NCBI GenBank assembly: GCA_024998595.1
Contig: JACOEK010000004.1
Location: 496,001-560,000, forward strand
DNA: 64,000 nt
DNA from: Nitrospira sp.
GTDB taxonomy: Bacteria; Nitrospirota; Nitrospiria; Nitrospirales; Nitrospiraceae
Reading direction: 5' to 3'
Shown: one piece after another, positions 11,130 through 24,933 of the stretch
Position numbering within the stretch: the stretch's first letter is position 1
How the letters are laid out: every line of letters begins with the position of its first letter
Made by a program: the position numbers and the translations under genes
Notes under the pieces: model-generated
Databases searched by the model: none
Told to the model about the DNA's origin: nothing
Seen by the model: only the letters and a program-made list of their open reading frames with translations

Positions 11130-11864
11130 ATGGCAAATCATTTTATCAGCACAATCGTGGGGGCTGTCCTGGCGGCGGCTTGTATCGGAGTGTCCGTTCC
11201 CGCGTCGGCCAATACCGAGGTGGAAACAGCTGAGTTACTCATTAAATTGCTGCAAGTCGGACGTGGTGTGCTGTCGGAAAACCAGGCCACGATCAATGAC
11301 GCGAGTAAGGGAGACAAGGGATTTACCGGGGATTACGTTGCCAACCAGGTTATCGACCGGTTTCGCAAAGCGACCAAGATCGATCTGAGCCGCCCGGCTA
11401 CCGTGCCTCAAGCGCCGCTGTTTCTCGCCATGGTGGAATCAGAGAAAGAAGTGATCGATGAGGCGCAGCCTGTGATCAACAAGCAGGGCGTCGGGTTCAA
11501 AGGCATTATTCCTGCCGTCTTCGCACGCAAATCAGGGGAGCGCTTCTATCGCAAGACCGGTATTCGCGTCAAGCTGACGAGCATCGACTATCGCTTTCCT
11601 GGAAACCGGCCGGATGATTTCGAATCCGAAGTGTTACGGATTTTCGCCGACACGCGCCATCCCAAGGGACAGCCCTATAGCAAAGCCACCATGTTGGACG
11701 GGAGACCGGTGCTGCGCATGATGGATCCGGAATATGCCGCGACCACCTGTCTCAGCTGTCATGGGAATCCCAAAGGCGAACGTGACGTGACGGGCGCCAA
11801 GAAAGAGGGCTGGCACGAAGGCGATCTGGCCGGCGCCATCAGCATTGTTATTCCTATGAAGTAG
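11130..11864 (+). CDS. Periplasmic haem-c DUF3365 (Tll0287-like) protein
   Basis: This 244-residue protein has a clear signal peptide (hydrophobic core in residues 8-22, ending PASA-N). The mature part of about 215 residues resembles the DUF3365 / Tll0287-like haem-binding domain. A single c-type haem site CLSCH is at residues 207-211. The upstream part has the family-type segments GFKGIIPAVFARKSGERF and GIRVKLTS. Such domains occur alone or as periplasmic sensor parts of receptors and cyclases. Here the protein is free-standing and is the first gene of a chemosensory operon with a strong Shine-Dalgarno sequence. A role as redox or gas-ligand sensor that talks to the MCP is an inference. Confidence 0.85.
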   Translation: MANHFISTIVGAVLAAACIGVSVPASANTEVETAELLIKLLQVGRGVLSENQATINDASKGDKGFTGDYVANQVIDRFRKATKIDLSRPATVPQAPLFLAMVESEKEVIDEAQPVINKQGVGFKGIIPAVFARKSGERFYRKTGIRVKLTSIDYRFPGNRPDDFESEVLRIFADTRHPKGQPYSKATMLDGRPVLRMMDPEYAATTCLSCHGNPKGERDVTGAKKEGWHEGDLAGAISIVIPMK

Positions 11865-11929
11865 GCACCACGGCGGATTCCACACGTGTCTGTCGCACAT
11901 TTTAGCCGGTTTGAAGGGGGGATGGATTC

Positions 11930-12292
11930 ATGAGCAAAATTGTTGTGGTCGATGATTCGTACGCCGAACTGCAGTTGATCGAAGGGTATCTCAAGTCGGC
12001 CAATCATACGGTGGTGTCCTATCCGAATACCGACAAACTTGAAGACAAGCTGGCGTTGGATAAGCCGGATCTGATCGTGTTGGACGTGGTCATGCCCGGA
12101 CGCAACGGATTTCAGGCCTGCCGCGACTTGAAGAGCGATGATCGGTTCAAAGGGATTCCGATCGTCCTCTGCACCTCTAAGGGCCAGGAGAGCGATAAGT
12201 TTTGGGGGCAGCAACAGGGTGCGAACGGCTATGTGGTCAAGCCGTTCAAGGCCGAAGATTTGGTCGCAGCCGTGAAACGGGCACTGAACTAA
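11930..12292 (+). CDS. Single-domain response regulator, PilH/CheY-like
   Basis: This 120-residue protein is a bare receiver domain. The acidic pair is Asp8-Asp9, the phospho-acceptor is Asp52 in LIVLDVVMPGRNGF, the switch residue is Thr82 in LCTSKGQ, and the conserved lysine is Lys104 in VVKPF. All catalytic residues are present. Receivers of this type with a CTSKGQESDKFWGQQQGA segment resemble PilH of type IV pilus chemosensory clusters. GGGGGGATGGATTC precedes the ATG, and the next gene starts 3 nt after the stop. It probably receives phosphoryl groups from the CheA-like kinase at 14.9-18.2 kb. Confidence 0.9.
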   Translation: MSKIVVVDDSYAELQLIEGYLKSANHTVVSYPNTDKLEDKLALDKPDLIVLDVVMPGRNGFQACRDLKSDDRFKGIPIVLCTSKGQESDKFWGQQQGANGYVVKPFKAEDLVAAVKRALN

Positions 12293-12295
12293 CTC

Positions 12296-12841
12296 ATGAG
12301 CGACGTTCCACTCATCCAGTCTCAGCCCTCCGCTTCTTCCCCGGCTCAAGGATCCTCCGGTTCATCGAGGTCTTCCGCCGCACCGACCGACGGCGTGCTG
12401 CGCATGTGCGTACTGACGCTGGGAGGAGAGCTGTTCGCCATTGATCTTCGCCACGTCAGTGAAGTGTTCGAAGTCGAATCCGTGACCGCCGTACCTAGCA
12501 TGCCCAGCTACCTGACGGGAGTGACCAATCTCCGGGGAACGGTGATCACTTTGGTCGATCTGCGCGGGAGCCTCGGCTTGTCGGTGAGTCATACGGCGTT
12601 GCCGTTCGCGGTCGTGATCCGTCACGGCGCGAGGCAAGTTGGTGTGCTGGTCGATCACGTGCCGGAGATTCATACGGTTGCCCGCGAGCACTTGCTGCCG
12701 GCCATGCAGGCGGGACCGGCAGGCGCACGACCCTGTGTGTCGGCAGTGCTTCGTCTGGATCAGCGCCTGGGAGGCGTGCTGGAAGTGCCGCAGGTCTTCG
12801 CGCAGGTGGACGGTGGGAGTGCGACGTTGTCGGTCGTGTAA
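12296..12841 (+). CDS. cheW: CheW/PilI-like coupling protein
   Basis: This 181-residue protein has a Ser/Ala-rich, probably disordered N-terminus of about 35 residues, followed by a CheW domain. Typical CheW segments are LRMCVLTLGGELFAIDL, SEVFEVESVTAVPSMPSYLTGVTNLRGTVITLVDLR, and GVLVDHVPEIHTVAREHL. This is the best-conserved of the three stand-alone CheW-type proteins in the operon and is the likely scaffold linking the MCP to the kinase. It starts 3 nt after the receiver gene and is followed by a gap of about 95 nt. Confidence 0.9.
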   Translation: MSDVPLIQSQPSASSPAQGSSGSSRSSAAPTDGVLRMCVLTLGGELFAIDLRHVSEVFEVESVTAVPSMPSYLTGVTNLRGTVITLVDLRGSLGLSVSHTALPFAVVIRHGARQVGVLVDHVPEIHTVAREHLLPAMQAGPAGARPCVSAVLRLDQRLGGVLEVPQVFAQVDGGSATLSVV

Positions 12842-12936
12842 GAGACAAAGCAATGACGGTTCGTGGGCCCGCGCGACCAGGGATTGTGCGACCGGCCTTC
12901 GAGCGTTGAGAAAGCAGTAACAAGGAGGAGCGCACC

Positions 12937-14811
12937 ATGATCGGGCAAGGCGTCACGAATCGATTCCAGGACATGAAGACACGATCGAAGCTGCTGCTCA
13001 GTTTCGGTCTGGTGAGTTTCATCATCTTGATCATGGCCAGCGTCGGCGTATTCACCCTGCGCCAGCTCAGTGCTCAGTCGCAAACCGTGTACGTGGACTA
13101 TACGGTGCCGCTGGCCGAATTCGCCCAGATGGGAACGGCGCTCACCAAGCATCACCAGATCTTGCTGGACGTTGCGTCTGCCACCAAACAAAGCGACTTC
13201 GCCCAAGAGATCACGAAACTTCCCCCCTTGAAAGCCGAAATCGACAAAGCCGTGAACAACTATAAGAGCACCAACTTGCGGGTGTCTCGGTCTGGCCGCG
13301 ACGAAATGAAAGACCTCACGCTGTTTGAACCGGCTCTCAAAAAATACTTCCAGGAAGCCGATGGCGCGCTCAGCGCGATGGCGGATAGCTTCGATCGCAA
13401 TACGTTGTCGTCGGCACAGGCAGAGCAGATGCGAGCCCTCGGCGTCTTGGCCTTGACGGTCAACTTGACGCCGTCCTTCGAGAATGCCGTGAAGCGCCAC
13501 AACGAGCAGGTGACCAGTATTGAGGCGGTGGCGAAGGATCTGAACGACGACGCCCAATCCCTGGCAGCCAGCGGTACCTTCATTCTCGTGGCCGGTGGTC
13601 TGGTGGCCGTGGCGCTGGGATTGTTCGTCGGATATATGCTGGCGACCTTCTTGTCGCGAAACATCACGCATATTGCCAATGTCGCTACGCAAGCGGCCGG
13701 CGGTAACCTCCAGGCGCGCGCGAAAATCGCATCGCACGATGAACTGGGGCAAATGGCCACGGCGTTCAACTCCATGCTCGATCGTATTACGGCTCTCGTG
13801 TCCACGGAGGAAGAGCGCGACCTGATGCAGAAGCGCTTGATGCAATTTCTCGTGCTCGTCTCTGAAGTGGGTAAAGGAGATCTGACCCGTCGAGGTGAGG
13901 TGACGGCCGACATGTTCGGTAACCTTGCCGACGGTTTCAACCTCATGATCGCCCGATTCGGACAATTGTTGAAACAGGTGCGTGAAGCCGCCGATCGCGT
14001 GAACAAGTCGGCCGGTACGCTGCGGGATTCAGCCGGACAGATGTCCGGAACGGCCCGGGCACAAGCGGAAGAGTCGGTGCGGACGCTGGGCGCGGTTGAA
14101 CAGCTGGCCGCAGGTATGCGCCAAGTGGCCACCACAGCCGGCGCGTCGTCGGATTCCGCCAAGCAAGTGTTGTCGGCGACGGAACGCGGAAACGTCGCGG
14201 TGCAGGAAACGGTGCGCGACATGCAGAGTATTCGCTCCGCGGTGCAACGCATGTCCAAGCAGGTGAAGGGCCTCGGTGACCGTTCACTGGAAATTTCCCA
14301 GATCGTTTCGACCATTCGTGATATCGCCAACCAGACGAACCTTCTCGCGCTCAACGCCGCCATCGAGGCGGCGGGCGCCGGTGAGGCCGGTGCGCGATTC
14401 GCCGTCGTCGCCGACCAGGTAAGAAAGCTGGCGGAAAGCTCGACGCAAGCCACGCGTGAAATCGCGGACCTCGTCAAAGTGATTCAAACGGAAACGCAAG
14501 ATGCGGTGGTCGCGATGGAGCATGAAACACAGGCCGTAGAAGCGGGATCTGCGTCCGCTCTCCGCACCGGTGACGTGTTCGCCGAAATTTCAGACATTGC
14601 GAAACGGTCATCGGAACTGGCGCAGAATATCGCCAGCGCGGCCTCGGATCAGACCTCATCGACTGAAAAAGTCGGTCGCGCGATTAAGGAGTTCACCGGC
14701 GGCGCCGTGGCGACGCAGAAACAAACCGACTCCACGCGACTCACGATCGAGGATATGGCCAAGCTGGCCGAAGGCCTCAACTCTTCAGTCGCCCAGTTCA
14801 AGCTCGCGTAG
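12937..14811 (+). CDS. Methyl-accepting chemotaxis protein with two HAMP domains
   Basis: This is a 624-residue transducer. A first transmembrane segment at about residues 19-41 is followed by a periplasmic helical region of about 165 residues of four-helix-bundle type, then a second transmembrane segment at about 207-230. A HAMP domain ([20 protein letters not shown]) and a second HAMP-like unit ([22 protein letters not shown]) precede the signalling hairpin. The tip includes [15 protein letters not shown] (residues 466-480) and [15 protein letters not shown]. No CheR-docking pentapeptide is visible at the C-terminus (SVAQFKLA), and no cheR or cheB is in the operon. Similar to PilJ in context. 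AAGGAGGAG precedes the ATG. Confidence 0.92.
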
Positions 14812-14863
14812 CAGAATTCTAGAAGAGCGGTAACCTGTCTCCGCTCGGATGTGAAGTAGGGCT

Positions 14864-17800
14864 ATGAGCGCTGATTTTGATCGCGACCAGCTGCTGGACA
14901 TTTTCGTGGCCGAAGCCGGCGACGACATGGAACGGTTCTGGAAGGCATTACACCTGGGAGGGAAGACGCGTCCTGAACCGGGTGATGTAGCAGGTTTCCA
15001 TACCGTCGGCCATAAATTGAAGGGCGCAGCGCTCCTGTACGGGTTTCCTGGTCTCGGCCAACTGGGCGCGTTACTCGAAGAGATCCTTGAACATGTTCAA
15101 GAGATTTCTCCGAGTCAGTGGCCGGTCGCCTTTGATGTGATCCGGGATATCGTCGCATCCTTCCGCCATCAGGTGGCGCAGATCGGACGAGGGGAAGGCG
15201 AGGATGCTTCGATCGTGGACGGGTTCGTTCAACGGTGCGCGCAATTCCTGCCGGCAGCCTCTGACGACGCTGCACCTTCTTCCCACACATCAACTGTGCC
15301 GGCAGACGAATATCTTCTCCCTGTGATGGATGCAGAGGTCCTTTCCTACTTTGCTCCTGAGGCCGAGGAATATCTGACTACGATTCAAACCCTTCTCCAG
15401 CGTTTGGAAGTCAATGTGTCGGATGCCGAGGCCATTCACCAATTGTATCGTGTTGCCCATACCCTCAAGGGCTCGGCCTATACCGTCGGCTTTCAGGTCG
15501 TGGGTGATGTGGCTCTGCCGATTGAAACCTGCATGATCGCCGTTCGCGAGGGCACGGCCGTCATTGCACCTCAGTGGATTGCGACGATCCGGCATGCAGT
15601 CGACGTGATGCGTTCGTTGATGGCCAGAGACGCGCAGCAGTTGGCCAGGCTGCGTCAGGATGTGCCCTGCATTACGACGATGCTCCGCGAACTAGAGCAA
15701 GGCATGCCACAGACCCAGCAGCCGGAAACGGCTTCCGTGCCAACCACGAGCGAACCGGTCGAGGACGTGCCCCCCCATGCGGCTGTTGCCGCTGAGCCGA
15801 GTGCTCCTTCTGCAGAGCAGAATCACTCAGGCGAACTGTCGGAAGCCTACTTGATTCCTTCACTGGATGCCGAAGTCATTTCTTATTTTGCTCCGGAGGC
15901 GCAGGAGTACCTGGAAAGCCTCGAGACCGACTTCTTGCGAGTGGACAAGGATGAAGCCAACCCGGACATCATCCATCAATTGTTTCGCACGGCCCATACG
16001 TTGAAAGGGTCGGCCTACACCGTCGGATTCCAATCAATCGGTGACTTGACGCACCACATCGAAGATTTTATGGGCGCGGTTCGCGAAGGACGTCTGAAGT
16101 TTCTTCCCGGCCATACGGACGTGCTTCTGCGTGCCATCGACGTCATTCGTGCCTTGATGCGGCGCGACCCGTCGCTTCTCAGCCGAACGAGACAGCGGTT
16201 CGCCGCGTCACTTCAGGAATTGAAAGGATTGGGAGAAGCCTCTGCGCCAGAAGGCCTAGAGCCTGCCGTGTCTTCGTTGACCGAAGCGATTGTTCCCCTC
16301 GGTCCGGGCGAACCTGAGACGGCCGAGTCGAGTCATGCGGGCGAGAGTAAAGCGGGAGAAGAGCGCGAGGTAATCCGGGTCAGCCGTGATCGCTTGGAAC
16401 GACTGCTCAATCTGGTGGGCGAATTGGTCATCGATCGCGGACGTCTCGAACAGCGATTGCGCACGCTGGATCAATTGGCGACCCAAGTGCTCGCCAATAA
16501 GAATCGACTCACCGATGCCGTACGGACGTTCGAAGACAAGCATACGTTCTCCTTTCAGCCTTCCCCTTCGTCGCAGGGAGAATCAGTGCCCCAAGCGTTT
16601 CCCGGTGTCAGCGACTTCGGCAGTCTGGAATTTGATAAGTACGATGATTTCAATATTCTGGCTCGTCGAATCAGCGAAGTGACGGCCGATATCAGCGAGT
16701 CCATGTCGCAGTTGTCAGGATCGATCCACCGCGCCCAGGATGACATGGGATCCCTGCAGCAGTTGACGCTCGGCATGCGTGATGAGATCGCACGCGCGCG
16801 TATGGTCCCGATCGGCACTCCGTTTACCCGGTTCCGCCGTGCGGCGCGCGAAATGGCCCGGGCCACGGGAAAAGAAGTGAATCTGGTTACTTCAGGAGAA
16901 CATACCGAAATCGACACCGGCGTCGTCGAGCGTTTGGTGGACCCGTTGGTGCACTTGGTGAGAAACGCCGTCTACCACGGCATTGAGCCGGCGGCGGTTC
17001 GTCGGATACAAGGCAAGCCGGCGGCGGGCACGATTTACCTGCACGCAGCGCATCGAGGCAACTCGGTACTGATCGAGGTCGAAGACGACGGGGCAGGACT
17101 CGACATCACCAAGATCAAAGCGAAGGCCGTCAAGCTCGGACTTGTCAGGCAGGATGTCGCGGAAACCCTCCCCGAGAGCGAAGTCATCAAGTTTATCTTC
17201 CTGCCCGGATTCTCGACCGCTGATGCCGTCGGCGACCAAGCGGGACGCGGAGTCGGCATGGATGTGGTCAAGCGCGTCATTGAGACGATGAACGGCCATA
17301 TCGAAGTGGAATCGGTACGCGGGCAGGGCACCAAGTTTACGATGCATCTGCCCCTCACTCTGTTAATTGCCACGGCCTTGCTGGTACGGGTTGGAAAAGA
17401 GCGCTATGCGATTCCTCTCCCGAGCGTGCGCGAAGTGACCATGTCGACGGCATCCACGATCCAACACATGGGTGATCGACGAGTGGTGCAAATCGGCGAC
17501 GAGGCCATCGAGGTCTATCCGCTGGGAAGCCTCATACGGCGCGAGGCCGGAACAACGGATGGAGTCTCTCCCGTGGTGATCGTACGAACGTCGACCGGCG
17601 CACTGGGCTGTGCGGTGGACGAATTGCTGGGCCGGCAGGAAATCGTCATTAAGTCGTTGGGTGGACTGAAGCCGTATGAGCGGTCCGTGTTTGGTGGGGC
17701 CACGATCGATCCGGAAGGACGTGTGGTGCTGGTGTTGGACGTCAGCCGCCTGACCACGCGCGAGTATCATGACACCCTGTCGATTGCGCAGGCTCCCGCC

Positions 17801-18241
17801 ATGGCGTCGATTGAAGACGCGACGGGGCACAGCGATGCAAGTTCGGATTCCCGCGCGCCGTTACCCCTCCTGTTGATCGACGACTCCCTCAGCATCAGAA
17901 AGTTCGTGGGTCGCATGCTCGAAGCTGCCGGGTATACGGTGGAAACGGCGGTCGACGGCGAAGAGGGCTGCCGCAAAGCCATGGTGCAAGCCTACCAACT
18001 GATCATCACCGATCTCGAAATGCCCAAGTTGAACGGCTACGAAGTTATCCAAGCCCTACGAGCCAGGCCTCAAACTCAGGCGACGCCAATCCTCGTGATG
18101 ACGACGCGGGCGGGAGAAAAGCATCGCCAGATGGCCGTGAGTGTCGGCGCATCGGGCTACATTGCCAAACCCGTCGAGGAACGGGCGTTGATTCAGGAAG
18201 TGCGCAAATGGACCGGTGTCGAGGCACGGGCCGAAAAATAA
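14864..18241 (+). CDS. CheA/ChpA-type hybrid histidine kinase with three Hpt domains and a receiver
   Basis: This 1125-residue kinase has, in order, three Hpt domains with histidines His50 (GHKLKGAALL), His199 (AHTLKGSAYT) and His378 (AHTLKGSAYT). A dimerisation region around 500-620 and an HATPase domain with N-box HLVRNAVYHGIE (from residue 697) and GRGVGMDVV follow. Then come a CheW-like P5 domain (about 830-970) and a C-terminal receiver with Asp1006-Asp1007 and phospho-acceptor Asp1050. Hpt2 and Hpt3 are close copies of each other, both preceded by an EV(L/I)SYFAPEA motif; Hpt1 is more diverged. The architecture is that of ChpA/PilL in type IV pilus chemosensory systems, with fewer Hpt units. 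It is the central kinase of this operon. Confidence 0.94.
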   Translation: MSADFDRDQLLDIFVAEAGDDMERFWKALHLGGKTRPEPGDVAGFHTVGHKLKGAALLYGFPGLGQLGALLEEILEHVQEISPSQWPVAFDVIRDIVASFRHQVAQIGRGEGEDASIVDGFVQRCAQFLPAASDDAAPSSHTSTVPADEYLLPVMDAEVLSYFAPEAEEYLTTIQTLLQRLEVNVSDAEAIHQLYRVAHTLKGSAYTVGFQVVGDVALPIETCMIAVREGTAVIAPQWIATIRHAVDVMRSLMARDAQQLARLRQDVPCITTMLRELEQGMPQTQQPETASVPTTSEPVEDVPPHAAVAAEPSAPSAEQNHSGELSEAYLIPSLDAEVISYFAPEAQEYLESLETDFLRVDKDEANPDIIHQLFRTAHTLKGSAYTVGFQSIGDLTHHIEDFMGAVREGRLKFLPGHTDVLLRAIDVIRALMRRDPSLLSRTRQRFAASLQELKGLGEASAPEGLEPAVSSLTEAIVPLGPGEPETAESSHAGESKAGEEREVIRVSRDRLERLLNLVGELVIDRGRLEQRLRTLDQLATQVLANKNRLTDAVRTFEDKHTFSFQPSPSSQGESVPQAFPGVSDFGSLEFDKYDDFNILARRISEVTADISESMSQLSGSIHRAQDDMGSLQQLTLGMRDEIARARMVPIGTPFTRFRRAAREMARATGKEVNLVTSGEHTEIDTGVVERLVDPLVHLVRNAVYHGIEPAAVRRIQGKPAAGTIYLHAAHRGNSVLIEVEDDGAGLDITKIKAKAVKLGLVRQDVAETLPESEVIKFIFLPGFSTADAVGDQAGRGVGMDVVKRVIETMNGHIEVESVRGQGTKFTMHLPLTLLIATALLVRVGKERYAIPLPSVREVTMSTASTIQHMGDRRVVQIGDEAIEVYPLGSLIRREAGTTDGVSPVVIVRTSTGALGCAVDELLGRQEIVIKSLGGLKPYERSVFGGATIDPEGRVVLVLDVSRLTTREYHDTLSIAQAPAMASIEDATGHSDASSDSRAPLPLLLIDDSLSIRKFVGRMLEAAGYTVETAVDGEEGCRKAMVQAYQLIITDLEMPKLNGYEVIQALRARPQTQATPILVMTTRAGEKHRQMAVSVGASGYIAKPVEERALIQEVRKWTGVEARAEK

Positions 18242-18288
18242 GAAGGTTTTGCCGACTGCTGCCGTGGCTGGCAGAATGAAGGGCACCA

Positions 18289-18858
18289 ATGGGTCTTCGT
18301 GGACAACGGGCAGTCACCATATCGAACGGTCACGCAGTCAGATTTCTTGTCACGTCGATCGGCGGCTCTTCCGTGGCTCTTCCAGCACATTGGGTTCGAG
18401 GCATCGTGACGCCCGCTTCCGCCGGGCCTGATGGGCTCGTCGCATGGGCCGGTATGCAATACGAACGAACGGATCTGGCCGCTCGACTCAAAATCATCTC
18501 TGGCGGTCTCTCTCACGATACCCGACTCATTCTGTATGGCAATGAAGAAAAAGCTCGATCGTTTGCGGTGGATAAGGTTCTCGGACTGCTGGACGTCGAG
18601 CGGGCGCTGATTTGTCCGTTGCCCCCTCAGTTCCGTGGCCAAGAGCGAGAACGACTGCTGGGATTTTTTGTCGATCCATCGTTCGTTGCGCTGATCGCCA
18701 ATCCATTTTGGGCCCTCGAGCTTCCACTCAGGCCCCAGGCGTTAGAGATATTTGCCATCCGCTCTTCGGAACGCAGTCCGTCAGAAGCTGAGTCGATCCA
18801 TCTTCCTGCGGTGGCAATGGATGAGGCGCTGTCGATGTCAACGGGCCCTGTGAGTTAA
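18289..18858 (+). CDS. Divergent CheW-like protein 1
   Basis: This 189-residue protein is not strongly recognisable by itself. Its segments VRFLVTSIGGSSVALPAHWVRGIVTPA, LAARLKIISGG, TRLILYGNEEKARSFAVDKVLGLLDVE and LPPQFRGQERERLLGFFVDPSFVALIAN follow the two-barrel layout of CheW domains, including a final ALIANPFWALEL strand. The ATG at 18289 has GAAGGG nearby. It starts 47 nt after the kinase gene. A second CheW-like gene follows after 15 nt, so the pair may be a scaffold or adaptor for particular outputs. The family call is a moderate-confidence inference from layout and context. Confidence 0.6.
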   Translation: MGLRGQRAVTISNGHAVRFLVTSIGGSSVALPAHWVRGIVTPASAGPDGLVAWAGMQYERTDLAARLKIISGGLSHDTRLILYGNEEKARSFAVDKVLGLLDVERALICPLPPQFRGQERERLLGFFVDPSFVALIANPFWALELPLRPQALEIFAIRSSERSPSEAESIHLPAVAMDEALSMSTGPVS

Positions 18859-18873
18859 TCGTCAAAGGTCATC

Positions 18874-19350
18874 ATGCTACGTGGGCAACTACGCAGACAG
18901 TCACAAGGTACGGCAGGAAGCGCGACCCACGCGCGGGTCCAGAATATGGTGGTGTTTTCAGTCGCCGGGCAACGGCTGGCTGCCCGGACCGAAGAGATCG
19001 GCGGCGTTCTGCCCTGGCCCGGGACCACGCCGGTTCCCAGTGATACGCCGTTGGTCACGGCGCTGGTCCGGTATGAGGAATCGTGTCTCCCGGTGTTCGA
19101 TCTCGCCGCAAAATTTAACCGAACGGTGCGCGAAGAGGATTCGTTGTGTCTGATCGTCAAACATGTTGATGGTCCTCTCGCGATTTGCATCGATGCACAG
19201 GTGCCATCGCTGCATGTGGTGCCGCGCTCAGAGCTACAGTATCAAAGCGGCCTCGATCCTGATATCGCCGGATCGTGTGTCGCAGGCGACGAACAACTGC
19301 CTCTCATCAACCTGGCAACTTTAGGGGTCGCGTCAAGGCGTTCTACTTAA
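18874..19350 (+). CDS. Divergent CheW-like protein 2
   Basis: This 158-residue protein has a CheW-like course after about 22 N-terminal residues. It runs NMVVFSVAGQRLAARTEEIGGVLPWPGTTPVPSDTPLVTALVRYEESCLPVFDLAAKFN, then SLCLIVKHVDGPLAICID and a final LPLINLATLG strand. The strand order and the VTALVRYEESCLPVFDL turn, which takes the place of the VxGvxNLRGxvvPvidL motif of CheW, support the assignment. It lacks the NLRG motif itself. Its neighbours are the other divergent CheW-like gene and a receiver/coiled-coil protein. Its function beyond scaffolding is unknown. Confidence 0.65.
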   Translation: MLRGQLRRQSQGTAGSATHARVQNMVVFSVAGQRLAARTEEIGGVLPWPGTTPVPSDTPLVTALVRYEESCLPVFDLAAKFNRTVREEDSLCLIVKHVDGPLAICIDAQVPSLHVVPRSELQYQSGLDPDIAGSCVAGDEQLPLINLATLGVASRRST

Positions 19351-19378
19351 TGCATCCGACATCTCGTAGGGGAATGAC

Positions 19379-20854
19379 ATGCCAAAGATCTTGATTGCCG
19401 ATGACAGCATTGCGGTTCGCAAGGTGGCGGAGCGGCTTTTGACTGAGGCCGGAATGGGCGTCACACTCGCGGCGAACGGTTCGGAAGCCTTGGCGATGTT
19501 GGCAAAGGATCGTCCCGATCTGATCGTCTCCGACGTCATCATGCCAGACAAGAGCGGGTATGAAGTCTGTGCATTCATCCGCGGGCAGGCAAACCTGGCC
19601 GATCTTCCCGTACTTCTGATCAGCGGCATAGTCAACGACGAAGTGTCCAGGCAGGCCGAATCCTGCAAGGCCGATGGGGTGCTGAAGAAGCCCTTTCAAG
19701 GATCGTCCCTCAAAGATCGCGTGCTGGATTTGCTGACGAAGCGTCCGCACAAGCCTGCGCCGGTGTCAGAACCTGACCATGCCTCACTCGCCGAGTCACC
19801 GGTCGTGACGGAGGTCGCGCCTGCGCCGGTGCCGCCGATGAAGGAAGACTTCGTGCCAAGCTCAGTGGTTCAACGGGAGTGGCAGCAACCGGCTGAACCG
19901 GTGGCGATCGCGATGGACCTGGCCCCTGCGGTGCCGGTGAGCAGTGAGGAATTTCCCACTGAGGGTATGCCCGCCCACCAGGCCTCTGAGCCGAGCCCTT
20001 CGGTGCAGGCAGATGATCGACATCAGGCGATTCTGGCCGAGCGGGATGCTCGAATTACTGAACTGGAAGAGCAGCTGGGCTCCGAACGCAGGAACAATCA
20101 GGAAGAGCGACAACAGAATCAACTGGTGTTGTCGGAACATCGCGAACAGATCGCTGCCGTATCTTCCCGAGCACAGGCGCTTGAACAAGCCCTGACAGAA
20201 GAGCGCGCTCATCGGGATGCGATGACTCAACAGCTGGAAGACCTGTCGAGACAGGCGCACCGATTGAGCGAGGTCGAGGCGGCATTAGTCGAAGAGCAGC
20301 GGCGCGCCCAACTGTTGGCGCAGCAGGTCTCGGAGGGGGCTCGTCTCGGCGCGCGCATCGTGGAATTGGAAGCTCATCTCGAAGCCGAGCGGGAAGCCGC
20401 CAACCAACTTGTCAGCCAGATTACAAGCCTCGAGCATGTCGAGGACCGCATGCGCGAGCTCGAACGGGTCCTGGCGAGCGAGCGGGAAACGGCGATGGCT
20501 CAGCGTCACGAACGTGCACAATTGGAAAAAACTGCAGCCATGGTGCCGGTACTGGAGGAGGCGGGGGAGAAAGCTCGAGCCCAGGTTGCCGAACTCGACG
20601 GGGCACTCGCGGCCGAGCGCGAAGCCGCGGCCGCCCTGTTGACGCAATATAAGCAGATGGAAGAGAAGGCGCAGCGTGTGGAGGAATTGGAGCAGGAGCT
20701 GAGTGCCGAACGTGACCACTCCATGCAATTGGGCAAACGCGTGGCTGATGCCGAGCTGATAGCCGAACAGTCTACGCGACGATTTGAAGATTTGGCGAGA
20801 AAACTGGGCGAAATCGCGGGACTCGCCTCGCAACTCGGAAACGCAAAACGCTAA
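19379..20854 (+). CDS. Response regulator with long C-terminal coiled coil
   Basis: This 491-residue protein has an N-terminal receiver (residues 1-118) with Asp8-Asp9, phospho-acceptor Asp52 in LIVSDVIMPDKSGYE, Ser82 and Lys104 in VLKKPF, so it is competent for phosphorylation. A Pro/Ala/Glu-rich linker (about 120-210) leads to a long heptad-rich region (about 215-475). There, units resembling IxELExxLxxEREAAxxL recur roughly every 45-60 residues, predicting an extended coiled coil. No enzymatic or DNA-binding output domain is visible. It may act as a phosphorylation-controlled structural or localisation factor, similar in spirit to FrzS or AglZ of Myxococcus; that comparison is architectural only. 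Confidence 0.85.
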   Translation: MPKILIADDSIAVRKVAERLLTEAGMGVTLAANGSEALAMLAKDRPDLIVSDVIMPDKSGYEVCAFIRGQANLADLPVLLISGIVNDEVSRQAESCKADGVLKKPFQGSSLKDRVLDLLTKRPHKPAPVSEPDHASLAESPVVTEVAPAPVPPMKEDFVPSSVVQREWQQPAEPVAIAMDLAPAVPVSSEEFPTEGMPAHQASEPSPSVQADDRHQAILAERDARITELEEQLGSERRNNQEERQQNQLVLSEHREQIAAVSSRAQALEQALTEERAHRDAMTQQLEDLSRQAHRLSEVEAALVEEQRRAQLLAQQVSEGARLGARIVELEAHLEAEREAANQLVSQITSLEHVEDRMRELERVLASERETAMAQRHERAQLEKTAAMVPVLEEAGEKARAQVAELDGALAAEREAAAALLTQYKQMEEKAQRVEELEQELSAERDHSMQLGKRVADAELIAEQSTRRFEDLARKLGEIAGLASQLGNAKR

Positions 20855-20883
20855 GAGGCCGTCACCCGTCCCATACCGGGCGA

Positions 20884-21858
20884 GTGCATGTGTCAGAGGC
20901 AGGACGCACTGTGTCGTCGGAATCAGAGCAAACCCAGGACGATTTCCAAAAAGAACTCATCGAGCTGTTCGGGCAAGAGGCGCAGGAGTGGCTCCTCCAG
21001 ATCCACGCGGCGCTGGTTGAGCTCGAAAGCCTGCCGGATTCGGATCGGCACACCCAACTGATCGACGCAGTCGTGCGAGGCATTACCAGTCTCGGCGGCT
21101 CCGCAGCCACGGTAAGTCTGCCTGATGTCGAACGGGCCACATTTGCGCTCCTGCCGTTCATCGAGACGATCAAAGACCGGACCACGGCGACGAAACAGGA
21201 TTTCAACACTGTCCGAGAACATTTTCGCATCGTCATCGCATCTGTGAGGGTGGCCACCGGAATCACGCTCGACATCGAACCTTCGCAGGAGTCGGCGCCC
21301 GCGCCAGAACCGGTTCTCGATTTTCTTACCCTGTTAAACGCACTGCATCGGCTACAGGATGAACTGGCGGCGCAGGGGAGCATGTCCCGCAGCCTCATCC
21401 CGCAGGTGCTGCAACGTGTGGAGCAGGAGGCGCGGCAAGGAGACGGACAGATCCAGGTCGCTAGGTTTCAGGAACTGTTGGTGACGGTCCATCACACGGA
21501 TGCTCAATATCTGGGCTCGCTACGACAGGAATTGCCCGGCATTGCACTGCATCTAAGCCGGCTTCGAGCCGGTGGACAGGCAATCCTGTCTTCTGACGTC
21601 GGATTCGACGCTCCGATGCAGATGGTTGCAAGCCTTCAGGACGTTGCCAAACAAACCAATGCCACGCCGCTCGTGACTTTTCTCACCGGTCTGCAGAATT
21701 TCCTTACATTAGTCGTCCAACGCCGCATTGAGATTGCGGCTCATCGGGTCGAATCGGTGGAGACGCGCATTTTGGCCATCGCCAGCATGGTCGAAGAGTG
21801 GATTGCCGACGGACAAAAAGAGTTGGATCTGATGAGTCGACTCGTCCCGTCGACCTGA
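20884..21858 (+). CDS. Hpt-like protein lacking the phospho-acceptor histidine
   Basis: This 324-residue soluble protein has an N-terminal helical domain (about 20-130) that aligns with the Hpt domains of the operon's kinase. Where those have RTAHTLKGSA, this protein has RGITSLGGSA (residues 65-74), so the phosphorylated histidine is Thr68 and the following lysine is Gly71. The C-terminal part (about 145-324) is entirely helical and resembles the C-terminus of the HD-GYP protein encoded next. The GTG start at 20884 is uncertain; GTG codons at 20890 and 20911 are in frame. It may be a non-phosphorylated partner or competitor in the phosphorelay. Confidence 0.6.
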   Translation: MHVSEAGRTVSSESEQTQDDFQKELIELFGQEAQEWLLQIHAALVELESLPDSDRHTQLIDAVVRGITSLGGSAATVSLPDVERATFALLPFIETIKDRTTATKQDFNTVREHFRIVIASVRVATGITLDIEPSQESAPAPEPVLDFLTLLNALHRLQDELAAQGSMSRSLIPQVLQRVEQEARQGDGQIQVARFQELLVTVHHTDAQYLGSLRQELPGIALHLSRLRAGGQAILSSDVGFDAPMQMVASLQDVAKQTNATPLVTFLTGLQNFLTLVVQRRIEIAAHRVESVETRILAIASMVEEWIADGQKELDLMSRLVPST

Positions 21859-22048
21859 GGACGCCACCCCGCCACCGGGAGGCCGGTTAAGACCTTCCGC
21901 AGACGTCCGGTCGGATAGCGGAGGATGCTCACCCTGTGCGCCACACCGCAACGGCCATGATCCTGTACGAGCTAGATAGGGGCGATCGTTGATCGCGACG
22001 GACGTATAGGCCCCAGGCTCTGCAGACAATGCGAGCGAGAGAGAGGGA

Positions 22049-24145
22049 ATGGAAGAGAATCACTACCGGCGGGCCGAGGAGATAGTGGCCAAGGTGGCTG
22101 CCTCCGTACAACGGCAAGACGCCGTGGACCTCGCCGATGTCACGCATCTCGCAGACGCCATCGTCGAATCGTTGCAGGCCAGCGACCAATTGGTTGTTGA
22201 AGCGCTCTCCAGTCCTGCCGGGCCTCCGCTGGTGACCAATCTCATCAATGTCGGAATCCTCGCCACGAAGGTCGGTATCGGCCTTGGATACTTCGGTGTC
22301 GAATTGCACCGGCTCGCCTTAGCCGGGTTGTTGCATGACATCGGCATTTTTGCCGTGCCGCAACATCTCCTCACAAAAACCGGGCGCCTGACCTCTGAAG
22401 AACGGACGTTGGTCGAACAACACCCTCGGCTGGGTTCCGAAGTTATAAAGCGTGCGGGGCCGGACTATGCGTGGTTGGCCGAGGTGGTGCTGCAAGCACA
22501 CGAGCGGGGAAAGGGGCAAGGATATCCTCTTCGCTTGAAGGGGCGAGAGATCAACGAGCTGGCGCAGATTATCGGCCTGGTGGACATCTTCGATGCGCTG
22601 GTCAGTCCGCGTCCCTATCGACGGCGGATGCTGCCCCATGAGGCCGTGCGTGAGTTACTCACGACGGAACGCACCGCGTTTCCGCGCGAAATCATGAAAG
22701 CGTTGGTCGAACAGTTGTCGGTCTATCCACTCGGCACCAGGGTGCGGGTCAGCAGCGGAGAGGAAGGGGTGGTGGTGCGTATTGCCGCCCGGTATCCTTC
22801 TCGTCCGGTGTTGCGTGTCATGGGCACAGAGAATGCGCCGGCCTCTGAACCCCCGCGTCTACTTGATTTGAGCCTGTTGCCGCACGTATCGGTGGTGGAT
22901 ACCGTCGAGCCGCCGGCCTTGGAACGTGTCACATTCGAACCTGCTGAGCCTGCCACGACGGCACCTGCTGCGCCGACAAACGTCTCCGATCAATTTGCCG
23001 CCTTGCTGGAAAGTCTCGATGCCATTGCCGGCGTCATCCAGGCCGCCGTAGATCAGCCGGCGGCAACGCCGGGGTCTGCCCAGGAGGCCGTCGAAGTTGA
23101 GCCGGCTGAGGCAGTCGAGCCGATGATTCCTGTACGCCGGGAAATCCTGGGCTTGTTCGTCTTGGAAGCACGAGAATGGCTCAATCAGATTCAAACGGCG
23201 TTGGAACGGCTGGACACCACCAGTGAGCAGGCCCGTCGCGCGCAATTGGCCACGATTTTATGGCAGAGCGTCAACAACCTCGCACGTTCCGCAGCCACGG
23301 TCGGGTTGACGGCAGTGGAGAATATGGCGACCAGGCTGTTTCCGCTGCTGCAGGCGGCGGCGAGGCATGAGAGAGCCGTGGCGGTGCATCACGTGGCGTC
23401 GCTTCGAGAGGGACTGCTGGAGATCAGCAAAACGGTCCAGGAGCTTCGGGCGGTCGATGAGACTCAAGCGACAGGCGAGGGGGCCGTTGAGCATCAACAG
23501 ACGGATGTTGAGGAGTCGAGGCCGCCAAAATTTCAGGATCCGCAGGTCCCTATCGAGATTGCTTCCCATATCGTCCCGCCCTCGAACAGTTCTCCCCATC
23601 CCGGGCCCTCGTCTTCCATTCTTGATGCCTTACGGCACCTGCATGTGGCGCGTGGACGGTCGCTTGAGCCCGTGCGTGATGTGTTGGAGACGGTCATTCA
23701 GCGAGCCGAACGGGAGATGGCGGAAGGCGCTGCGGTGGTGGATGCGCGGACCATCGGCCGTCTGCTGCAAGAATTGGATGATTTGGATGAACGGTTTCTC
23801 GGCCACATGCAAGCCCGGGTTCCATCGGTCATCGCGACGCTCGGCCGCATCGCACGCGCGAGCGAAGAGCGAGTGCTGCCTCCTCAGGCGTTGGAGCCGA
23901 TTTTTGACGAAATCGATGTGCTATTCGAGGCCTCCGAACGGGTGTCCGCAGCGAACATCAGCGTCTTCCTTCAAGGTCTGCGAACATTCCTTCGCGTGAC
24001 CGCGCAACACAAGCCTGCTGCCATTCGGGAGCGGTTGGCTGCCGTGGAAGAGCGCTTGGCCACGCTTATTCCGCTGGCTCAGCAATGGGTTGATGTCGGG
24101 CGTGTGGAACGGGCGGCCATTTTTGATATTCTGCCCATGACCTAG
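22049..24145 (+). CDS. Degenerate HD-GYP protein fused to an Hpt-like module
   Basis: This 698-residue protein has an N-terminal HD-GYP domain (about 30-235) with His96-Asp97 in LLHDIGIF, His125 in EQHPRLGS, HERGKGQGYP at 151-160 and Asp179 in GLVDIFDAL. Two expected metal ligands are changed: Asn64 replaces the first histidine, and Ala150 replaces the first residue of the HHE motif. The HDIG lysine is Ile100. A small beta-rich segment (about 240-285) and a Pro/Ala linker follow. Next is an Hpt-like helical domain whose histidine position holds Asn (VNNLARSA), then a helical C-terminus shared with the preceding gene product. Cyclic-di-GMP hydrolysis is therefore doubtful; binding or scaffolding is possible. 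GAGAGGGA precedes the ATG. Confidence 0.8.
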   Translation: MEENHYRRAEEIVAKVAASVQRQDAVDLADVTHLADAIVESLQASDQLVVEALSSPAGPPLVTNLINVGILATKVGIGLGYFGVELHRLALAGLLHDIGIFAVPQHLLTKTGRLTSEERTLVEQHPRLGSEVIKRAGPDYAWLAEVVLQAHERGKGQGYPLRLKGREINELAQIIGLVDIFDALVSPRPYRRRMLPHEAVRELLTTERTAFPREIMKALVEQLSVYPLGTRVRVSSGEEGVVVRIAARYPSRPVLRVMGTENAPASEPPRLLDLSLLPHVSVVDTVEPPALERVTFEPAEPATTAPAAPTNVSDQFAALLESLDAIAGVIQAAVDQPAATPGSAQEAVEVEPAEAVEPMIPVRREILGLFVLEAREWLNQIQTALERLDTTSEQARRAQLATILWQSVNNLARSAATVGLTAVENMATRLFPLLQAAARHERAVAVHHVASLREGLLEISKTVQELRAVDETQATGEGAVEHQQTDVEESRPPKFQDPQVPIEIASHIVPPSNSSPHPGPSSSILDALRHLHVARGRSLEPVRDVLETVIQRAEREMAEGAAVVDARTIGRLLQELDDLDERFLGHMQARVPSVIATLGRIARASEERVLPPQALEPIFDEIDVLFEASERVSAANISVFLQGLRTFLRVTAQHKPAAIRERLAAVEERLATLIPLAQQWVDVGRVERAAIFDILPMT

Positions 24146-24282
24146 GGCCTATGCCCCCTCACGGATCCCATCTCCATTCCTTCTGAACATCGTTCTTTCA
24201 GTCGCCTAATCCTTGGGCAGTTGACGTCCGCGCCCTCGCAGTCCGCGTGCAAGCGTTCCATCCACATGGTTGCGCACAGTCC

Positions 24283-24301
24283 GTCCACAGTTCTTGTGGA
24301 C
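24283..24301. repeat. Inverted repeat downstream of chemosensory operon
   Basis: GTCCACA (24283-24289) and TGTGGAC (24295-24301) form a perfect 7-bp stem with a 5-nt loop, about 140 nt after the HD-GYP gene stop and 108 nt before the next ATG. No U-run follows, so it is not a typical intrinsic terminator. It could be a weak terminator or an operator for the membrane protein gene. The flanking CCACA motifs resemble imperfect DnaA boxes, but matches are poor. Confidence 0.35.
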
Positions 24302-24408
24302 AGGCGGCAGGAGCCGGCTCACAGCGGCCATTCGGGACGAAACATATCTCATCGAATCCGTACAATTTCTCTTGCGGTTGGGGTTGGGATTGTACGACCA
24401 TCACCGCC

Positions 24409-24933
24409 ATGCCAAAACTTGTCTCAGTCAAACAGCAGGAAGGCCACGACGCTCGCGCGACGGCCTATATCAAAGCCTACATGTTATTTCCCGCCGGTAT
24501 CCTCGGCCTGATCTCCATGATCGGCGGGGTGGGCGGGTTGGGGTATCAGCTGCTTGCCACGGACACCTATTCGTGGACAACATTTCTCCAAAGCTCAGGA
24601 CTATTGTTGTTAGGAGGCGTGCTGGGCTGGCTGCAGACCACGTATCATCGCTGGATCCTGGCCAATCGTCCGGAAGTATTTGCCGAACGCATGCGGCAGC
24701 CGGCGCTCAACAAAGCTGGCCGGCCCAAGCGGGAGAGTGGAAAAAGTCAGGAGTCGGCCAGTGGCTCGCCATGGGCTCCCGGCGCATACATGGTCGGTCT
24801 TGCAGTCCTGCTTGCTGGATCGATGCTTAGCGTGCTCTACGGTGCGGTGCATCCGATCGCGGCTTGTTTTCTGCCTTGGGCCGGATTCTTCTGGGCCAAA
24901 CTCTTCTTCTGGAAGACGCTGCTGAAGACCTGA
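24409..24933 (+). CDS. Small membrane protein of unknown function
   Basis: I do not recognise this 174-residue protein. It has about four hydrophobic segments: AYMLFPAGILGLISMIGGVGG (residues 24-44), a second at 59-75 (LLLLGGVLGWLQ), a third near 125-147 and a fourth near 150-167 rich in Trp and Phe (WAGFFWAKLFFWKTLLK). A basic hydrophilic loop containing PKRESGKSQESASGS separates segments 2 and 3. The frame is open upstream of ATG 24409, but that ATG fits the start of charged then hydrophobic sequence. Its stop lies 15 nt from the convergent lpxD stop. Confidence 0.65.
   Translation: MPKLVSVKQQEGHDARATAYIKAYMLFPAGILGLISMIGGVGGLGYQLLATDTYSWTTFLQSSGLLLLGGVLGWLQTTYHRWILANRPEVFAERMRQPALNKAGRPKRESGKSQESASGSPWAPGAYMVGLAVLLAGSMLSVLYGAVHPIAACFLPWAGFFWAKLFFWKTLLKT

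Follow-up and report, generated by a model that had tools for sequence, protein, structure and literature searches.

Two adjacent proteins of a Nitrospira chemosensory cluster carry Hpt domains without the phospho-acceptor histidine, one of them fused to a degenerate HD-GYP domain

Results

We analyzed a 64,000-nt stretch of the genome of a Nitrospira sp. (assembly GCA_024998595.1, contig JACOEK010000004.1, positions 496,001 to 560,000; genome size 4.23 Mb, completeness 99.4%), referred to below as the window, with a focus on two adjacent genes coding for proteins of 324 and 698 amino acids (S324 and F698). Positions are those of the window, and all features described are on the + strand. S324 (20884..21858; an open reading frame with a GTG start) consists of an Hpt domain that lacks the phospho-acceptor His and of an all-helical C-terminal domain. 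In F698 (22049..24145), a His-less Hpt module is fused to a degenerate HD-GYP domain. The two genes, separated by 190 bases, are the last of a chemosensory cluster that spans 11130-24145 and codes for a Tll0287-like protein, a CheY/PilH-like receiver, CheW, a methyl-accepting chemotaxis protein (MCP), CheA, two CheW-like proteins, a receiver-coiled-coil protein, S324, and F698. They end the conserved cluster across Nitrospiraceae, and the S324-type (S-type) gene adjoins the receiver-coiled-coil gene in syntenic loci, outgroup genera included. Each is one uninterrupted open frame, and a mis-called frame was therefore rejected. The start of S324 may instead be the GTG at codon 10 (window 20884-20913), about where 315-amino acid open reading frames of some relatives begin.

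The first-pass annotation of this DNA had proposed that both proteins contain Hpt folds. The Pfam Hpt model matches S324 with an E value of 3.6e-4 (residues 24-88) and F698 with an E value of 0.014 (residues 365-456), in both cases under the curated cut-off. For single members of the family, the match is uneven (33/50 S-type rows and 1/38 fused rows at E <= 0.01). When profiles were searched against the PDB, the best match of the S type was CheA P1 (2ld6/1tqg; E 3.6e-5), which was also the best match of the fused type within its Hpt region (2ld6; E 4.1e-6). In profile-profile comparisons with hhalign, the S-type Hpt region matched the alignment of CheA Hpt3 with a probability of 96.4 (E 1.1e-9), and the fused-type region matched CheA Hpt2 with a probability of 95.4 (E 1.7e-8). 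The probability was <1 for each of the three controls: the CheA receiver, the CheA dimerization region, and the four-helix region of the MCP. The S-type and fused-type Hpt regions are homologous to each other (probability 99.86, E 3.4e-31).

Structural models agree with the profiles. The S324 model was built from 50 sequences [predicted local distance difference test (pLDDT) of 87.8 and predicted template modeling score (pTM) of 0.53], and the F698 model from 38 sequences (pLDDT of 75.2 and pTM of 0.46). Both proteins contain a P1-type bundle of four antiparallel helices, at residues 15-126 of S324 (20926..21261) and residues 361-472 of F698 (23129..23464). Foldseek alone gave no match for S324 at E <= 0.001, and VIA-align was then used as a second look. 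Residues 20-126 of the S324 model superimposed on Thermotoga CheA P1 (1tqg) with a Z score of 12.9 and a root mean square deviation (rmsd) of 2.4 over 104 aligned residues; for residues 361-468 of F698, the middle bundle of the model, the values were 14.7 and 2.2 over 103 residues. Since other helical bundles reach similar Z scores, a fold match alone is weak evidence. Hpt identity is thus decided by the sequence profiles, with which the predicted fold agrees, and the proposal was borne out by superposition and profile comparison alike.

To describe the acceptor site across the family, we used 112 distinct modules (63 S-type and 49 fused) with matches of at least 60 bits and, for fused modules, a length of at least 200 residues. 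Identical sequences were counted once; many rows come from close relatives and are not independent. At the position of the phospho-acceptor His, S324 has Thr68 (21085..21087, in ITSLGGSAAT) and F698 has Asn409 (23273..23275, in VNNLARSAAT). This column contains T 55, A 5, S 2, and N 1 in the S-type rows and T 23, S 12, N 10, and G 4 in the fused rows, i.e., T 78, S 14, N 11, A 5, and G 4 overall, and His in 0/112. Within the genus of the window, almost every fused-type row has Asn, Ser, or Gly here. The absence of the acceptor His, noted at first pass in the two proteins, thus extends to the whole sample. What had been missed is that two further residues of the site are gone as well: the Lys at +3 is found in 0/112 modules, and so is the Glu at +22, which is replaced by L, I, V, or F. 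In the motif-found CheA Hpt domains of syntenic loci, this Glu is present in 122/122.

The CheA-type hybrid kinase of the cluster (14864..18241; identified by open reading frame, Pfam, and CheA alignment) has three His-bearing Hpt domains and a receiver. As annotated earlier, its Hpt2 and Hpt3 read AHTLKGSA, and the His of Hpt1 is also kept (GHKLKGAA). In an alignment of 55 CheA proteins of at least 700 amino acids, including that of the window, the His is retained in 54/55 Hpt1 domains, 47/49 aligned Hpt2 domains (6 rows are gapped), and 55/55 Hpt3 domains. Among 17 Hpt-model matches in the genome, the H-x-[LIM]-K motif is present in 15, and the only exceptions are S324 and F698. In the CheA proteins of relatives L094, L113, and L090, Asp replaces the His of Hpt2 in two cases and that of Hpt1 in one, and the +3 Lys of Hpt1 is present in merely 27 of the 55 aligned proteins.

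The surroundings of the lost site are conserved differently in the two types. In the S type, L70, G71, G72, S73, A74, A75, and T76, which follow the site in S324, are invariant or nearly so. The Gly at +4 is present in 60/63 S-type rows but in 0/49 fused rows (R 28, K 19, and Q 2), so S324 and F698 may bind different partners. As to whether another conserved His could stand in for the lost one, none is found at the canonical site; elsewhere in the S-type Hpt domain, H41 (helix A) and H56 (start of helix B), both off the acceptor position, are common (55/63 and 54/63 rows). In the fused-type Hpt region, the best His column reaches at most 26/49 rows.

To estimate selection, we calculated ratios of nonsynonymous to synonymous substitution rates (dN/dS). 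In comparisons of the window with three relatives, dN/dS was 0.026-0.065 for the Hpt domain of S324 and 0.040-0.057 for that of F698. These values are in the range of those of Hpt1-3 of the kinase (0.029-0.107, two relatives) or lower. The His-less domains are therefore maintained under strong purifying selection. The family is retained in 73/79 genomes of the same taxonomic family (counted from a table of matches at E <= 0.001, a few of which are perhaps plain Hpt matches). Given the dN/dS values and this retention, decay of the two genes into pseudogenes was rejected.

The first-pass annotation had also proposed that the C-terminal regions of S324 and F698 resemble each other and that the proteins arose by duplication. 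Residues 143-322 of S324 (21310..21849) and 524-696 of F698 (23618..24136) indeed form a shared helical domain, with homology over ~175 residues (hhalign probability 99.95, E 2.2e-38). This domain was considered as a second hidden Hpt, for which there was no support (a probability of 9 for the S324 C terminus against the S-type Hpt and of <4 for other Hpt comparisons). In a tree built by a quick method from 74 of the 112 modules, with several long branches, all 27 fused modules fall on one side of a single branch with a support of 100. Duplication of the shared module (Hpt and C-terminal domain) thus holds. The paralogy is limited to this module because F698 begins with an HD-GYP domain, which had gone unnoticed.

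The HD-GYP domain occupies residues 1-228 of F698 (22049..22732; HD_5 match with E 4.7e-28). HD_5 is present in 38/38 fused rows, and the structural matches of the domain include 4mcw, 4r8z, and 3tmb. Its top structural match in VIA-align is Bd1817 (Z 21.3, rmsd 3.1, 210 aligned residues); on PmGH (4mcw), Z is 15.7 and rmsd is 3.6 over 183 residues. Statements on published proteins here and below refer to the consulted passages of the papers cited. The metal ligands of PmGH are E185, H189, H221, D222, H250, H276, H277, and D305 (PMC4159591). H189 was mapped to Asn64 of F698 (22238..22240) by counting from the HD motif without gaps, and H276, the first His of HHE, to Ala150 (22496..22498). Of the 73 family rows, fused and standalone alike, 72 are readable at these columns, and both ligands are replaced in all of them (N in 72/72; A in 67 and V in 5). 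The seven metal ligands listed as common to both HD-GYP groups (PMC4159591) are therefore incomplete in this family. The equivalent of PmGH K225 is I, L, or V in 73/73 rows. Other equivalents are kept: H221/D222 and H250 in 73/73 rows, H277 and GYP in 72/72 readable rows, and D305. Both His residues are present in 7/7 other readable HD-GYP domains of the same genome (an eighth, L125, was not extracted).

In PmGH, Ala at H189, H276, or K225 essentially abolished activity, and changes in the GYP motif and at R314/K317 were without large effect (PMC4159591). F698 has lost the equivalents of H189 and H276 and retains GYP as well as R188 and R191, so it is predicted to bind cyclic di-GMP (c-di-GMP) but not to cut it.

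HD-GYP genes without the module are found in relatives. On a quick-method tree of 34 HD-GYP domains plus a single outgroup, the label fused or standalone has to change three times, and standalone copies mostly cluster with fused copies of their own genus (L088, on a long branch, is unplaced). Later losses of the module are therefore likelier, and we dropped the idea that standalone HD-GYP represents the prefusion state. No HD-GYP gene was found at the cluster of outgroup genera L083-L087 (L085 is a short contig), though the S-type gene is there. On the simplest reading, S324 is old, one copy of it was fused once onto HD-GYP, and this copy was later lost in some lineages.

Discussion

S324 and F698 probably serve for docking and not as enzymes. 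By analogy with FimL of Pseudomonas aeruginosa, we consider it reasonably likely that they are phosphorylation-independent docking proteins of one chemosensory array, with F698 coupled to c-di-GMP through its dead HD-GYP domain. Each Hpt bundle, unable to take up or pass phosphate, would offer a docking face to a receiver encoded in the cluster. The candidates are the receiver with a long coiled coil encoded directly upstream of S324 (19379..20854; Response_reg E 3.2e-22), the single-domain CheY/PilH-like receiver (11930..12292; Response_reg E 6.9e-24), and the receiver of the kinase. Docking is modeled on FimL, which holds on to PilG even when the latter cannot be phosphorylated. In F698, the HD-GYP domain, lacking catalytic metal ligands but retaining GYP and the substrate-contact residues, would bind c-di-GMP without hydrolyzing it, and F698 would pass the state of the second messenger to the array, whose output may be type IV pili or another process. 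More tentatively, F698 could be a doubly dead connector in which the c-di-GMP level decides which array receiver is held, with S324 acting as a nucleotide-blind competitor.

Several observations weigh against receiver docking with coupling of F698 to c-di-GMP. The R, K, or Q that stands for the +4 Gly in every fused module could keep receivers from docking at the canonical face, and Thr at the acceptor position of S-type rows is more constant than expected of a free position. A possible metal site (H96, D97, H125, H151, and D179) is left in the HD-GYP domain of F698. Loss of the K225 equivalent says little by itself because Lys is present in only 4/7 of the other readable HD-GYP domains of the genome and absent from the remaining 3. 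Last, no pilus genes were seen within the annotated stretch of the window; two PilT-family proteins score above the cut-off in the genome, so a pilus output is possible.

The altered acceptor-side surface of F698 would also fit a purely structural role without any receiver: the bundles would hold the C-terminal domain, dimerize, or bind either CheW or the CheA dimer. Conservation of the C-terminal domain in F698 is also close to that of the Hpt domain (dN/dS of 0.032-0.046 and 0.040-0.057, respectively), as such a role would allow. In S324, by contrast, the Hpt domain is clearly more conserved than the C-terminal domain (dN/dS of 0.129-0.155), which, together with the near-invariant L70-T76, suggests that the face of the lost site still contacts something. 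We regard a structural role without receivers as rather doubtful.

It is less likely still that F698 has an active HD-GYP phosphodiesterase whose metal site is altered and which the Hpt module brings to the array. The retained HD, H250, H277, D305, and GYP equivalents are compatible with activity, but the two invariably replaced His residues are both essential in PmGH (PMC4159591).

Phosphorylation of Thr68, or of Ser/Thr in relatives, in place of His would follow a proposal made when the Thr/Ser Xpt domains of ChpA were named. Thr is indeed the most frequent residue at this position in both types, but Ala, Asn, or Gly occupies it in 20/112 rows, Asn, Ser, or Gly prevails in fused rows of the window's genus, and the site has lost its Lys and Glu too. 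In ChpA itself, only five of nine Xpt domains, all of them Hpt, show phosphotransfer (PMC12632253). With the acceptor residue so variable, we rejected this possibility as very unlikely. Least probable of all is that S324 is an unorthodox live phosphotransfer protein phosphorylated at H41 or H56, since these residues, however common in the S type, are off the acceptor position, CheA P1 is gapped opposite H56 when the profiles are aligned, the site's Lys and Glu are absent, and no His column of the fused type is comparably conserved.

For docking without phosphotransfer, the reading that we prefer, FimL is by analogy the nearest precedent. FimL has Gln at both acceptor sites, and canonical phosphotransfer was judged unlikely (PMC3019171). 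It recruits PilG together with ChpA, and PilG D58A and D58E behave alike (PMC10519157). Like S324 and F698, FimL has an Hpt-like domain without the acceptor His and acts beside a CheA-type kinase with several Hpt domains, and the published reading is docking without phosphotransfer (PMC3019171, PMC10519157). Compared by description, the proteins also differ: FimL is similar to the ChpA N terminus and contains two Hpt-like domains in which Gln occupies the site, whereas S324 has one His-less Hpt and a different helical domain, its gene belongs to the cluster of the kinase itself, and its paralogue is fused to HD-GYP. No FimL-named model was among the NCBIfam or Pfam matches of the family.

The nonphosphorylated Xpt domains of ChpA, proposed to be protein-binding scaffolds, have Thr/Ser at the His position (PMC12632253), as do many family members. 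They sit inside the kinase, whereas S324 and F698 are separate proteins. For the HD-GYP part, the closest cases are DvhD, a metal-ligand-poor HD-GYP protein that works as a c-di-GMP switch (PMC13090378), and Bd1817, both without phosphodiesterase activity (PMC13090378, PMC4159591). F698 shares their fold and retains HD and GYP while lacking H189 and H276; no Hpt module is joined to DvhD or Bd1817 in the consulted passages.

Hpt proteins without the acceptor His are also known from plants, where papers use the term pseudo-HPt for proteins of the AHP6 type. In AHP6, which is an inhibitor, Asn replaces the acceptor His. Unlike S324 and F698, plant pseudo-HPts are free single-domain proteins of the cytokinin relay. 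In listings of open-licence literature, we found no description of the S324/F698 pair or of an HD-GYP-pseudo-Hpt fusion.

The family is a conserved case of relay domains kept under strong selection after loss of all phosphate chemistry, and in F698, such a domain is tied, within the same protein, to a second-messenger domain that seems no less disabled. Should the binding steps be borne out, the two proteins would connect a chemosensory array to c-di-GMP directly and physically, without catalysis, in nitrite-oxidizing bacteria of the nitrogen cycle.

Some features around the two genes are of separate interest. The Tll0287-like protein with a heme-type CxxCH motif that heads the cluster (window 11130-11864), as it does in several relatives, may be a sensor input. 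In many relatives, a gene with a P-loop-type stretch separates the S-type and HD-GYP genes (L103:10952-11827, L092:10594-11418, L088:8830-9621, and others); judged by eye, its product presumably resembles ExeA-type ATPases. F698 is followed by a protein encoded at 24247-24933 that has no Pfam match at E 0.001; most syntenic loci have a relative of it at this location, frequently a shorter open reading frame of ~174 amino acids.

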